Source of the DNA: Actinopolymorpha pittospori
Lineage (GTDB): Bacteria; Actinomycetota; Actinomycetes; Propionibacteriales; Actinopolymorphaceae
Length of the DNA stretch: 64,000 bases
Reading direction: 5' to 3'
Assembly (NCBI RefSeq): GCF_014873875.1
Contig: NZ_JADBEM010000001.1
Location: 434,001-498,000, forward strand
Positions 28,352-31,979 of this stretch are shown piece after piece. Numbering within the stretch: position 1 is the first letter of the stretch; each line of letters opens with the position of its first letter. The position numbers were made by a program, and so were the translations under genes. Under the pieces are notes generated by a model. That model searched no databases. It had not been told where the DNA came from and saw only the letters and a list, made by a program, of their open reading frames with translations.

Positions 28352-29395
28352 TCAGACCGTCGTTGCGAGCTCAGCGAGACCACGCAACGAAAGCTCGCTG
28401 GCGTAGTGGCAGGCGGAGTAGTGCCCGTCCGCGATCTCCTCCAGTGCCGGCGTTTCGGTTCGGCACAGCTCAGTGGCGTAGTGGCAGCGGGGCGAGAACA
28501 GGCAGCCCGTCGCACGGTTCGTCGGGCTCGGCACCTCACCCTTCGGGACGATGCGTTCCCGCTTCACCTCCGGGTCAGGCTGCGGCACGGCCGAGAGCAG
28601 CGTCTCGGTGTACGGGTGCCGGGGTACGGCGAACAGCTGGTCGGTCTCGGCCAGCTCGACGATCCGGCCCAGGTACATCACCGCGACGCGGTCGGAGATG
28701 TACTCGACGATCGAGAGGTCGTGGGCGATGAACAGGTACGTGATGCCCAGCTCGTCCTGCAGATCCTTCAGGAGGTTGATGATCTGGGCCTGGATGGAGA
28801 CGTCCAGAGCAGAGACCGCCTCGTCGGCGACGATCAACTTCGGCTTCGTCACCAGGGCCCGTGCGATGCCGATCCGCTGACGCTGCCCGCCGGAGAAACT
28901 GTGCGGATACCGACGTAGATGAGAGGGGTCCAGGCCGACCTTCTCCGCGATCTCGCGAACGCGACGGCGCAGCTCCGTGGTCGGCATCCTGCTGGTGGCC
29001 CGCAGCGGCTCGGCGATGATGTCGAAGACGGTCATCCGCGGGTCGAGGGAGGACAACGGGTCCTGGAAGATCATCTGGATGTCCTTGCGGACCCTCTTCA
29101 GCGCCCGGCCCTTGAGTGCGAGGAAGTCGATCTCGGCGGGCTGCTTCTCCCCCTGTTCCCCGGCCGCTTTCTCAACCCCGGCCGACGGGGAGTAGACGAC
29201 CTTGCCTGAGGTGGCGTCGATACCACGTACGATCAACCGGCCCAGGGTCGACTTCCCGCAGCCGGATTCGCCGACCACCGACAGGGTCTCCCCGGCCTGC
29301 AGAGTGAGGGAGACGTCGTCGACGGCGGGAAAGCTCGCCCGCTTCGAGACGCGGAACTCCTTGGTCAGATGCGTGATGCGCATCAGCTCGCTCAC
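28352..29395 (-). CDS. Opp-type ABC transporter ATPase (OppF-like)
   Basis: The 347-residue ATPase has Walker A GESGCGKST, signature FSGGQRQRIGIARAL, Walker B LIVADEAVSALD and the C-terminal oligopeptide-transporter extension with a Cys pattern (CLFSPRC, CHYATELC) that suggests an iron-sulfur-like site seen in this family. It pairs with the second ATPase to drive uptake by the two permeases. GTG 29395 is the start used here; ATG 29383 is possible. An AAGGAT ribosome site remains ahead of it, but an IS110 element now begins 22 bases upstream, so expression depends on a new promoter or read-through. Confidence 0.92.
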   Translation of the reverse strand: MSELMRITHLTKEFRVSKRASFPAVDDVSLTLQAGETLSVVGESGCGKSTLGRLIVRGIDATSGKVVYSPSAGVEKAAGEQGEKQPAEIDFLALKGRALKRVRKDIQMIFQDPLSSLDPRMTVFDIIAEPLRATSRMPTTELRRRVREIAEKVGLDPSHLRRYPHSFSGGQRQRIGIARALVTKPKLIVADEAVSALDVSIQAQIINLLKDLQDELGITYLFIAHDLSIVEYISDRVAVMYLGRIVELAETDQLFAVPRHPYTETLLSAVPQPDPEVKRERIVPKGEVPSPTNRATGCLFSPRCHYATELCRTETPALEEIADGHYSACHYASELSLRGLAELATTV

Positions 29396-29439
29396 TGGTG
29401 CACCATCCTTAGGTCACTGATCTTGGATGGATTGGTGAT

Positions 29440-29600
29440 GCGCCCGAGGTGCCGCCAGGTCATCGCCCTGCTCGCTTGATGCGGTGGATGTCCAGCATGA
29501 GATCTGCGAGATCTGGCGGTTACCCGGGACGTGCCGACCGTCGACAGGGCTGAGCGCCTGCGAGCGCCGATCAGTGAGCGAACCGGCAGCCGCGTCCCGG
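29440..29600 (+). ncRNA. Predicted bridge RNA of the IS110 element
   Basis: Two stem-loops with internal loops are visible, in the order target loop then donor loop. The target stem CCGCC/GGCGG (29452-29456, 29515-29519) encloses AGGTCA (29457-29462), identical to the left flank 29411-29416, and GCATGAGA (29495-29502), the complement of the right flank 30910-30917. The donor stem TGCCG/CGGCA (29532-29536, 29584-29588) encloses ACAGGGCT (29544-29551), identical to the element's right end plus core (30902-30909), and GATCAG (29569-29574), the complement of core plus left end (29417-29422). A small GCGC/GCGC hairpin separates the donor guides. This is the layout known from IS621. Exact transcript ends are unknown. 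Confidence 0.65.
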
Positions 29601-29649
29601 CACCGCACGAAGGCGCCTCCCCACTGGGACTAGCAGCAAGGAGGCTGAG

Positions 29650-30900
29650 GTGACGTCTGCCATGAACACCCTGCCCGACGAACCCCTCAACGGTGTGAGT
29701 GGTGGCCTGGACTGGGCCCGTGACGATCACGCGGTGTCGGTCGTGGACAATCGCGGCCGCGAGCTCGTCCGGCACACCGTCGAGCACAGCGCTGCCGGCC
29801 TGCGCGAGCTGATCGCCGTGCTGGGGGATGCCGGCTGCTTCGAGGTGGGGATCCAACGCCCCGACGGGCCGGTAGTCGAGGCCCTGCTCGCCGCCGGCAT
29901 GACGGTGGTGGTGATCAACCCGAACCAGGTGAAGAACTTGCGCAGCCGCTACGGCTCGGCAGGCAACAAGGACGATCGGTTCGAGGTGTTCGTGCTCGCC
30001 GACACACTGCGCACCGACCGGGCCCGGCTGCGTCCACTCACCCCGGACAGCCCCCAGACCGCGACCCTGCGCCAGGCCTGCCGGGCACGCAAAGACCTCA
30101 TCACCCACCGGGTCGGCGTCGCCAACCAGCTGCGCGCCCACCTGCGCACCGTCTCCCCCGGCGCCGTCGGCTTGTTCGCCGAGATCGACAGCGTGATCAG
30201 CCTGGCATTCCTGGCCCGCTTCACCACCCAAGACCAGGCCGACTGGCTCACCCCAACCCCTCTGGGCGCCTGGCTGTCCAAGCTCGGCTACTCCGGGAAA
30301 GTGGACCCCGCCGTGCTGCACACCCGACTCAGAGCCCCGCCCCAGAACGTGGTTGGCGACCAGACCATCACTAGCGCGGCGATCACCCGATCCTTCACCG
30401 CCGTGCTCACCACCCTCCTCGAGCAGATCAAGACCCTCACCAGCCAGATCGAGACGGCTCTGGCCGCGCACGCCGACGCGCACATCTTCACCAGCCTGCC
30501 CCGCGCCGGAGGCGTCCGCGCCGCTCGACTGCTCGCCGAGATCGGCGACTGCCGCGCCAAGTTCCCCACACCGGAGTCGCTGGCCTGCCTGGCCGGCGTC
30601 GCACCCTCCACCCGCCCCTCCGGCAAGATCCGCGCCGTCGGGTTCCGCTGGGCCTGGAACAAACAACTCCGCGACGCCGTCACCGACTTCGCCGGCGACT
30701 CCCCACGCGCCAACCCCTGCGCCGAAGACCTCTACCAACGTGCCCGCGGCCGAGGCCACGACCACCCGCACACAGTGCGCATCCTCGCCCGCGCCTGGCT
30801 CCACATCATCTGGCACTGCTGGCAGAACAACACCGCCTACGACCCCACCAGACACGGCGCCCTCCAACGCCTCCAGCAAGATCAACAAGCAACGGCTTGA
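29650..30900 (+). CDS. IS110-family transposase (bridge-RNA recombinase), altered DEDD site
   Basis: The 416-residue protein has the N-terminal RuvC-like domain and the C-terminal transposase-20 domain (TSLPRAGGVRAARLLAEIG, LAGVAPSTRPSG with the likely catalytic Ser). The four catalytic acids are expected at GLDWARDDH, at VGI-E-R, and at NKDD..FD. Here the second is Gln (VGIQRPDG) and the fourth is Glu (DDRFEVF), giving D-Q-D-E. From memory, close relatives keep Glu and Asp. Loss of the Glu should impair metal binding, so this copy may be inactive, or it may be a variant. The frame is otherwise full length. Confidence 0.9.
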   Translation: MTSAMNTLPDEPLNGVSGGLDWARDDHAVSVVDNRGRELVRHTVEHSAAGLRELIAVLGDAGCFEVGIQRPDGPVVEALLAAGMTVVVINPNQVKNLRSRYGSAGNKDDRFEVFVLADTLRTDRARLRPLTPDSPQTATLRQACRARKDLITHRVGVANQLRAHLRTVSPGAVGLFAEIDSVISLAFLARFTTQDQADWLTPTPLGAWLSKLGYSGKVDPAVLHTRLRAPPQNVVGDQTITSAAITRSFTAVLTTLLEQIKTLTSQIETALAAHADAHIFTSLPRAGGVRAARLLAEIGDCRAKFPTPESLACLAGVAPSTRPSGKIRAVGFRWAWNKQLRDAVTDFAGDSPRANPCAEDLYQRARGRGHDHPHTVRILARAWLHIIWHCWQNNTAYDPTRHGALQRLQQDQQATA

Positions 30901-30911
30901 CACAGGGCTTC

Positions 30912-31979
30912 TCATGCCTGCTCCTTCGTCACCGTTTCGGAGACTTCCGCGTACTCAGGGTCGTGAAGGACGCAGCGGACGGTGTGCTGAGGTCCGATGG
31001 TGAGGGTGCGCGGGACGACGGTGTCGCAGATGCCGTCGATGCGCTGGGGACACCGTTCCGCGAACCCGCACATCGGCGGCATGTCGATCGCCTGGGGGAC
31101 GGTGCCCTCGATCGCGAAGAGCCGCTCCGAACGGCCCATGCCGAGCCGCGGGATCGAGCGGAGCAACCCGCGGGTGTAGGGATGCCGGGCGGCCTTGAAG
31201 ATCTCCCGTACGCCTGCGTGCTCGACGATACTGCCCAGGTACATGACCGCGACCTCGTCGCACATCTCCGCGACGACGGCGAGGTCATGGGTGATGAACA
31301 CGATCGCCATCCCGGTCTCGCGCTGCAGCTGCTTCATCAGTTCGAGAACCTGGGCCTGGATGGTGACGTCCAGGGCCGTGGTGGGCTCGTCGGCGATGAG
31401 GATTTCCGGCTCGCAGGACAGTGCCATCGCGATCATCGCCCGCTGCCGCATGCCGCCCGAGAACTCATGGGGATACTGGTCGATGCGCCGTTCGGCGTCG
31501 GCGATCCCGACCTTCTTCATCGCTTCAAGACACACTTCCCGAGCCACGGCCCGGTCCTGGGTGCGATGCAGCAGGATCGCCTCCATGATCTGGTCGCCGA
31601 TGGTGTGCAGCGAGCTGAACGCCGTCATCGGCTCCTGGAAGATCATCGCGATCCGCCGACCGCGCACCGTACGAATGACCGACCCGTCACGCCGCAACTC
31701 CAGGAGATCGAGCTCCTCATCCGTCGCGGTCCTGTGCAGGGTCACCCGGCCGGACTCCTGGAAGTCCTTCGGGTTCAGCCGCAGCAGGGTCTTCGCGGTC
31801 AGCGACTTCCCCGAGCCGGATTCGCCGACGATGCCGAGCGTCATTCCGGCCTTCACGGTGAACGACACTCCGTCGACCGCTTTGAGCAGTCCGTTCTCGG
31901 TGGGGAGGTGAACCCTGAGGTCCTCCACGGTGAGCACGGTGGTGCCCGTCGCCGGCATGGTGATCTGATCGGACGTCAC
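30912..31979 (-). CDS. Opp-type ABC transporter ATPase (OppD-like)
   Basis: The 355-residue ATPase has Walker A GESGSGKSL, signature FSGGMRQRAMIAMAL, Walker B ILIADEPTTALD and the family C-terminal Cys-rich part (CGFAERCPQ). It is the first of the two ATPases of the uptake system. AAGGAG lies ten bases before GTG 31979, and the permease gene ends 44 bases upstream. The stop codon at 30912-30914 lies two bases from the IS110 insertion core, so this gene is intact while the next one is cut off. Confidence 0.92.
   Translation of the reverse strand: MTSDQITMPATGTTVLTVEDLRVHLPTENGLLKAVDGVSFTVKAGMTLGIVGESGSGKSLTAKTLLRLNPKDFQESGRVTLHRTATDEELDLLELRRDGSVIRTVRGRRIAMIFQEPMTAFSSLHTIGDQIMEAILLHRTQDRAVAREVCLEAMKKVGIADAERRIDQYPHEFSGGMRQRAMIAMALSCEPEILIADEPTTALDVTIQAQVLELMKQLQRETGMAIVFITHDLAVVAEMCDEVAVMYLGSIVEHAGVREIFKAARHPYTRGLLRSIPRLGMGRSERLFAIEGTVPQAIDMPPMCGFAERCPQRIDGICDTVVPRTLTIGPQHTVRCVLHDPEYAEVSETVTKEQA

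Follow-up and report, generated by a model that had tools for sequence, protein, structure and literature searches.

The window analysed here, 64,000 nucleotides at positions 434001-498000 in an actinobacterial chromosome of 10.56 Mb, holds a single copy of an IS110-family element whose predicted bridge RNA matches, in its right target guide, the ATGA overlap between two genes of an operon. A 507-codon open frame, antisense to the transposase, spans the element and likely lets ribosomes cross it and restart at a GTG codon supplied by its left end. Insertion sequences are thought to damage operons through polarity. The reading proposed here, drawn from comparison of sequences, is that this element and its relatives that target start codons are built so as to be crossed.

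The earlier note on this DNA had recognised an IS110 element with a structured 5' non-coding end, and this is borne out. The transposase matches PF01548 (DEDD_Tnp_IS110; 115.7 bits, cut-off 29), PF02371 (Transposase_20; 58 bits, cut-off 21.3) and NF033542 (147.1 bits, cut-off 140), the domains of the IS110 family, and the non-coding ends, 257 bp on the 5' side of the transposase ORF and 10 bp on the 3' side, together with a CT core, fit the layout of that family. Close relatives were gathered from the element's own order, from plasmid records and from GTDB genomes, where 80 of 139 loci were kept; phage records held no match to the element. Both ends were found in 75 of the 101 sources scanned. 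Leaving out six duplicates or identical copies and L073, which has no right flank, gave 68 elements, and L093 and L104, whose ends are unreliable, were further left out of the tree and of the catalytic-residue, phase and open-frame counts (66 elements). The element and its revised ends are as follows.

29393-30910, plus strand: IS110-family element of 1518 bp, ends revised from relatives and empty sites
29391-29392, no strand: left CT core dinucleotide, where the sequence shared by relatives begins (CTCACTGG), and supported by the junction of the L039 empty sites
30911-30912, no strand: right CT core dinucleotide, placed from the ends of relatives and the L039 empty sites
29650-30900, plus strand: IS110-family transposase, 416 aa, with E69Q and D112E at the positions of IS621 E60 and D105

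The ends had been claimed to lie at the CT dinucleotides 29417-29418 and 30908-30909, which relatives and empty sites show to be off by 26 bp on the left and by 3 bp on the right. A left end, CTCACTGGTG, is common to all aligned relatives and corresponds to window position 29391. At the right end, the two or three bases after CACAGGG vary between elements (CTT, CAA, CTA or CAT after GGG), and four identical copies in one genome (G033) have, beyond these variable bases, only CTCATGAC in common. One of the G033 copies, the sister insertion L039, has 29 homologous empty sites in its genus, which join the flanks without the variable bases. Because of this junction and of the variation after GGG, we place the right core at 30911-30912. 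The junctions read (A/G)TGAG followed by left-flank sequence in 20 of the 29 sites, (A/G/T)TGAC in eight and neither in one. Moreover, an orthologous empty operon (L265, genome G519) reads ..AAGGAGGCGAACGCATGAGCGCC.., with the upstream TGA overlapping the downstream ATG, and its junction, GCATGAGCG, is the sequence given by joining the flanks of the window element. The earlier note had stated that an empty-site junction elsewhere would refute its reading, and the L039 empty sites and the L265 operon both contradict its ends; although the AGGTCA and GATCAG matches that had partly guided the placement of those ends are present in the sequence, the conserved left end at 29391 and the junctions in L039 and L265 leave the older placement with virtually no chance of being right. 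The operon of the window itself was not found in same-genus genomes (best about 57% identity), and the empty loci of L041 gave no alignment to the junction.

Some relatives have unusual ends or interiors. In L061 the right flank opens with the element right end once more (CTTGACACAGGG), which makes this a repeated or nested insertion. A Mycobacterium riyadhense plasmid (L053:1501-1800) carries the element left end without a transposase, and an annotated DUF4436 gene starts at its GTG. On a Rhodococcus sp. WAY2 plasmid (L051), the 5' part of the transposase of a related element is split by an IS3 element.

The 5' non-coding end of the element encodes the predicted bridge RNA, with these parts and targets.

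29452-29519, plus strand: stem-loop for target binding in the predicted bridge RNA, with its arms at 29452-29466 and 29506-29519 and 14 conserved pairs in 60 relatives
29386-29390, no strand: left target GCTCG in host DNA, left of the core, equal to bases 29470-29474 of the left target guide
29470-29476, plus strand: left target guide GCTCGCT (revised), equal to left flank GCTCG plus core CT, a weak match
29495-29501, plus strand: right target guide GCATGAG, complement of core CT plus CATGC, covarying with the flank
29544-29551, plus strand: left donor guide ACAGGGCT, equal to right end 30902-30909, conserved
29572-29578, plus strand: right donor guide CAGTGAG (revised), complement of core CT plus left end CACTG, assigned from sequence

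Four guides matching the element's ends and insertion site had been proposed, of which the matches of GCATGAGA and ACAGGGCT hold and those of AGGTCA and GATCAG fall away. The sequence GCATGAGA at 29495 is indeed the complement of the right flank. At 29544, ACAGGGCT equals the right end as claimed but not the core, since one base separates the match from the revised core; the left target, right target and right donor guides match the core dinucleotide in full. The misplaced left end had led to the wrong bases being taken for the other two guides: once the ends are revised, AGGTCA (29457), taken as the left-flank guide, and GATCAG (29569), taken as the guide for core plus left end, both match the interior of the element. 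The earlier caveat that the target guides mismatch the core no longer applies to the right target guide, which pairs with CT and CATGC.

The CCGCC/GGCGG stem described earlier is kept in the 60 aligned relatives, where the target-loop stem comprises 14 pairs, 12 of them varying, with 8 non-pairing cells in all; the donor stem, described at the same time, is weakly supported by the alignment fold. Folding of the lone window sequence gave a stability not above that of shuffles (z -0.73), so that support for the bridge RNA is comparative, and an Rfam scan of the window returned no match at the gathering score. Covariation between guides and flanking bases, proposed earlier as a check, is clear for the right target guide, which over 55 distinct guide/target pairs agrees with its target, on average, at 7.0 of 9 positions, against 5.32 when guides and targets are re-paired (highest of 2000 re-pairings, 5.69); the core and the five adjoining positions agree in 84-100%. 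Agreement is poorer for the left target guide, with 5.69 of 11 positions against 5.11 (highest 5.49; n = 65). Where guides depart from RTGAG the flank departs too, as in the compensated pairs GGGACGAG/CTCGTCC (L097), AATAGGAG/CTCCTAT (L108) and GAGCAAG/CTTGCTC (L043). The order of target loop before donor loop, likened to that of IS621 in the earlier note, is upheld by homology, by the conserved structure and by guide/flank covariation at other sites. Together, these observations support an IS110 element with an IS621-like predicted bridge RNA; we infer that the RNA is made and would guide insertion.

On the minus strand, the host site and the left end of the element have the following layout.

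30912-30915, minus strand: host ATGA, in which an ATG start overlaps the TGA stop of the upstream ABC ATPase gene; read from the sequence, with the same overlap in L265
29393-29395, minus strand: putative GTG restart codon provided by the left end and set in the reading frame of the downstream host gene; read from the sequence, and the start of the annotated CDS in L051 and L053
29403-29410, minus strand: AAGGATGG, Shine-Dalgarno-like motif upstream of the restart codon, from the sequence and the consensus of relatives; putative function
28352-29395, minus strand: downstream host gene, a peptide ABC transporter ATPase (OppF/DppF-like), with its start taken as the GTG of the element

The right target guide GCATGAG contains the start codon that lies inside the ATGA overlap of the two operon genes. 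On the minus strand the target reads ..ATG AG.., its TGA being the stop of the upstream gene in most cases, and the left end reads ..AAGGATGGTGCACCA GTG AG. The left end thus supplies GTG-AG, by which the displaced downstream gene would regain a start codon in frame. Neither this target, nor the returned start, nor the antisense frame described below had been remarked on in the earlier note. The downstream product in the window, MSELMRITHLTKEF, matches 7 of the 14 homologues fetched in the length of its N-terminus, and in both annotated records fetched with such a left end (L051 and L053) the CDS is annotated from the GTG. Among 45 elements with a start-codon guide, the reverse-complement consensus keeps the Shine-Dalgarno-like motif as GGATGG. 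Judged by codon-position G+C (44 elements, L093 being left out), the TGA closes the upstream coding frame in 32 of 41 elements, the restart frame set by the left-end GTG-AG is that of the downstream coding sequence in 30 of 42, and both conditions hold in 23 of 39, compared with 6 of the 30 unoccupied GCATGAGCG sites examined in the own genome. A cruder test, requiring open frames of at least 80 codons, gave 34/44 upstream, 25/44 downstream and 20/44 for both, compared with 28%, 40% and 10%, respectively, for 343 RTGAG sites in the flanks. As with IS900, the target lies at translation initiation signals.

A single antisense frame joins the two sites.

29392-30915, minus strand: antisense open frame of 507 codons, from the host ATG (30913-30915) to a TGA (29392-29394) that overlaps the GTG restart codon

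This frame runs through the right end, the transposase and the bridge-RNA region to CAG TGA, where the TGA and the GTG share bases as GTGA. It has no start of its own and covers the whole element, as does hed of IS900. We classed the 66 elements by the presence of (A/G)TGAG in guide or target, which gave 46 start-codon elements and 20 others. The antisense frame is open in 36/46 of the former and 0/20 of the latter; classing by guide alone gives 35/45 and 1/21, the exception being L121, in which one guide base is changed and the flank is still ATGAG. The ten start-codon elements that lack the open frame include three Egibacteraceae copies (L101, L118 and L126). The lengths of the left and right ends are both in the same phase in 40/45 elements with a start-codon guide and in 3/21 others (homology-based counts, which replace earlier motif-based ones). 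On the tree, the guide class switches at least nine times on well-supported branches. Among independent tree pairs, an open frame goes with the start-codon class in 6.2, against it in 0.0 and makes no difference in 2.8 (median p 0.03), while for the codon trait alone the median p is 0.07, which is not significant.

High-GC codon usage could have produced the frame incidentally. Its codons are in register with those of the transposase, and therefore antisense stops would arise only from the rare codons TTA, CTA and TCA; the hosts are all high-GC Actinobacteria. The other elements do use these codons, however: their 20 transposases contain 67 of them, against 3 in the 46 start-codon elements, and when elements are sorted by flank, with L093 and L104 included, the counts are 68/9308 and 6/18159, respectively. 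A-ending control codons are not depleted likewise (Fisher p about 1e-9, from a test that wrongly treats codons as independent). Two elements whose guides lack a start codon, L065 and L067, nevertheless have transposases free of antisense-stop codons. The bridge-RNA end, which does not overlap the transposase, is by itself open in 42 of the 46 start-codon elements, where shuffles lead one to expect 12.0, and the end lengths keep phase, as counted above. Near-copies and shared ancestry weaken these contrary counts but do not cancel them. We rejected a chance antisense frame on the stop-codon counts, the bridge-RNA end and the phase of the lengths, and regard codon usage as an improbable source of the frame. 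Among the sequences compared, both the avoidance of antisense stops and the frame-keeping lengths are confined to relatives that target start codons.

According to the reading that we prefer, the predicted bridge RNA is made and would steer insertion to the ATGA stop/start overlap, and the antisense frame would be translated from the host ATG across the element. Termination at the TGA within GTGA would then allow ribosomes to restart on the downstream gene. The element would in this way act as one more cistron, starting at the upstream ATGA and handing on at GTGA, and polarity would be avoided; the translated antisense product would itself serve no function. The last point can be judged from a second IS110 lineage that the genome contains. 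The best other transposase in the genome is 38% identical to that of the window, and its lineage has four copies (L266-L269) with the guide GCATGAG and the target GCATGAG at 4/4 sites. Here an antisense frame of 493 codons begins at the host ATG and ends in a TAA that overlaps a left-end ATGAG, and the upstream coding frame stops at TGA in three of the four copies. The antisense product of this lineage (MSFLSQ..EGMVL) differs from that of the window lineage, and the layout is alike. Because two lineages combine different products with the same layout, the selected function would be translation itself and not the antisense product. A third IS110 lineage is present in two copies (L270 and L271), with an antisense frame free of stops over 1443 nt; the genome (G000) is unusually rich in the family, with 49 IS110 transposase-domain matches in one chromosome.

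Alternatively, the antisense frame may code for a Hed-like protein that has a job of its own and borrows the host start, the sparing of the downstream gene being a side effect. IS900 hed, as described in the available text of PMC8141618, is a whole-length antisense ORF without its own start, and the product can be aligned in 29 elements, with a mean column identity of 59%. That conservation, however, can stem from the transposase on the opposite strand, and the second lineage keeps the layout with another product. Searches of the product against Pfam and NCBIfam gave no match, and AlphaFold2 (29 sequences) returned a mean pLDDT of 35.7 and no predicted fold, which leaves a folded antisense protein unsupported, although a poor model does not disprove one. 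We consider a protein with its own function unlikely. Eleven of 50 matches to the antisense product were fetched, and in 5/11 another Pfam domain precedes the MSSP start, indicating that the element has in some cases inserted within a gene, in its reading frame. In the database proteins P0123, P0124, P0126, P0135 and P0161, a host protein continues in this way into the product (MSSP..). It is also quite possible, if somewhat short of an even chance, that insertion occurs wherever the guide fits, stop/start junctions prevailing since selection removes the other insertions. Unoccupied guide matches (GCATGAGCG) in the own genome lie at such junctions, by both conditions, in 6 of the 30 examined (the first 30 of 180), and in-gene fusion insertions exist. 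Against this, most relatives have RTGAG in the guide itself, which pairs with RTGAG. Insertion followed by selection is, moreover, compatible with the translated-spacer mechanism that we favour.

The window copy probably no longer moves. Codons 69 (29854-29856) and 112 (29983-29985) of its transposase are changed to Q and E relative to E60 and D105 of IS621. The first position is E in 64 of 66 elements and the second D in 65 of 66, and the window copy is the sole case of either change. It thus lacks the intact D-E-D-D plus Ser set (D11, E60, D102, D105 and S241 in IS621). Mutating any catalytic residue of IS621 abolished activity, the mutants named in the available text being alanine changes (PMC11208158). 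A search of the PDB by sequence with one protein gave no match, and an alignment-based structure search found IS621 (8wt6). Because two catalytic residues are changed, we regard the copy as probably a dead resident; its antisense frame is open and its right target guide intact.

On balance, the evidence somewhat favours a class of bridge-RNA transposons that are transparent to operons. In such elements the guide would point to the stop/start overlap of two cistrons, the left end would return a start codon, and the element and its guide RNA would be free of antisense stops, forming an extra cistron translated backwards, its junctions overlapping at either end; the class would include at least two separate IS110 lineages within one genome, and hed of IS900 would be a translated spacer and not a protein gene. 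If so, the guide, the ends and the whole length of an RNA-guided element would be fitted to keep both neighbouring genes expressed; its persistence within operons would then be explained, and the antisense ORF known from IS900 would have a testable role. A guide-RNA gene without antisense stops would be a new constraint, relevant to genome annotation and to bridge-RNA engineering.

Several parts of this design are known from other elements. As described in the available text of PMC11208160 and PMC11208158, IS621 has a DEDD/Tnp recombinase, a bridge RNA from the left end with a target loop and then a donor loop, a CT core, and guides that pair with core and flanks, all of which the window element resembles. 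In contrast to IS621, it has a guide that contains a start codon, a left end that restores one and an antisense frame that spans the element; the terms 'start codon', 'stop codon' and 'antisense' are absent from the main text of PMC11208160. With the seekRNA of IS1111/IS110 elements (PMC11187229), transposases of the same family likewise choose their targets by means of an RNA, and the portion of that text searched does not contain an antisense frame or a start-codon logic. Nor was left-end restart or avoidance of antisense stops described in the literature searched, which covered few subscription papers. The nearest precedent is IS900 of Mycobacterium avium subsp. paratuberculosis, an IS110-family element that, in the available text of PMC8141618, targets translation initiation signals (motif CATGNNNNNNTCTCCTT) and carries hed, an antisense ORF of unknown function that covers the whole element and borrows the host start. 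Initiation-signal targeting and a whole-element antisense ORF that uses a host start are thus common to both; relative to IS900 as that text presents it, the window family adds a link to the guide RNA, an overlapping stop and restart, and selection against antisense stops.
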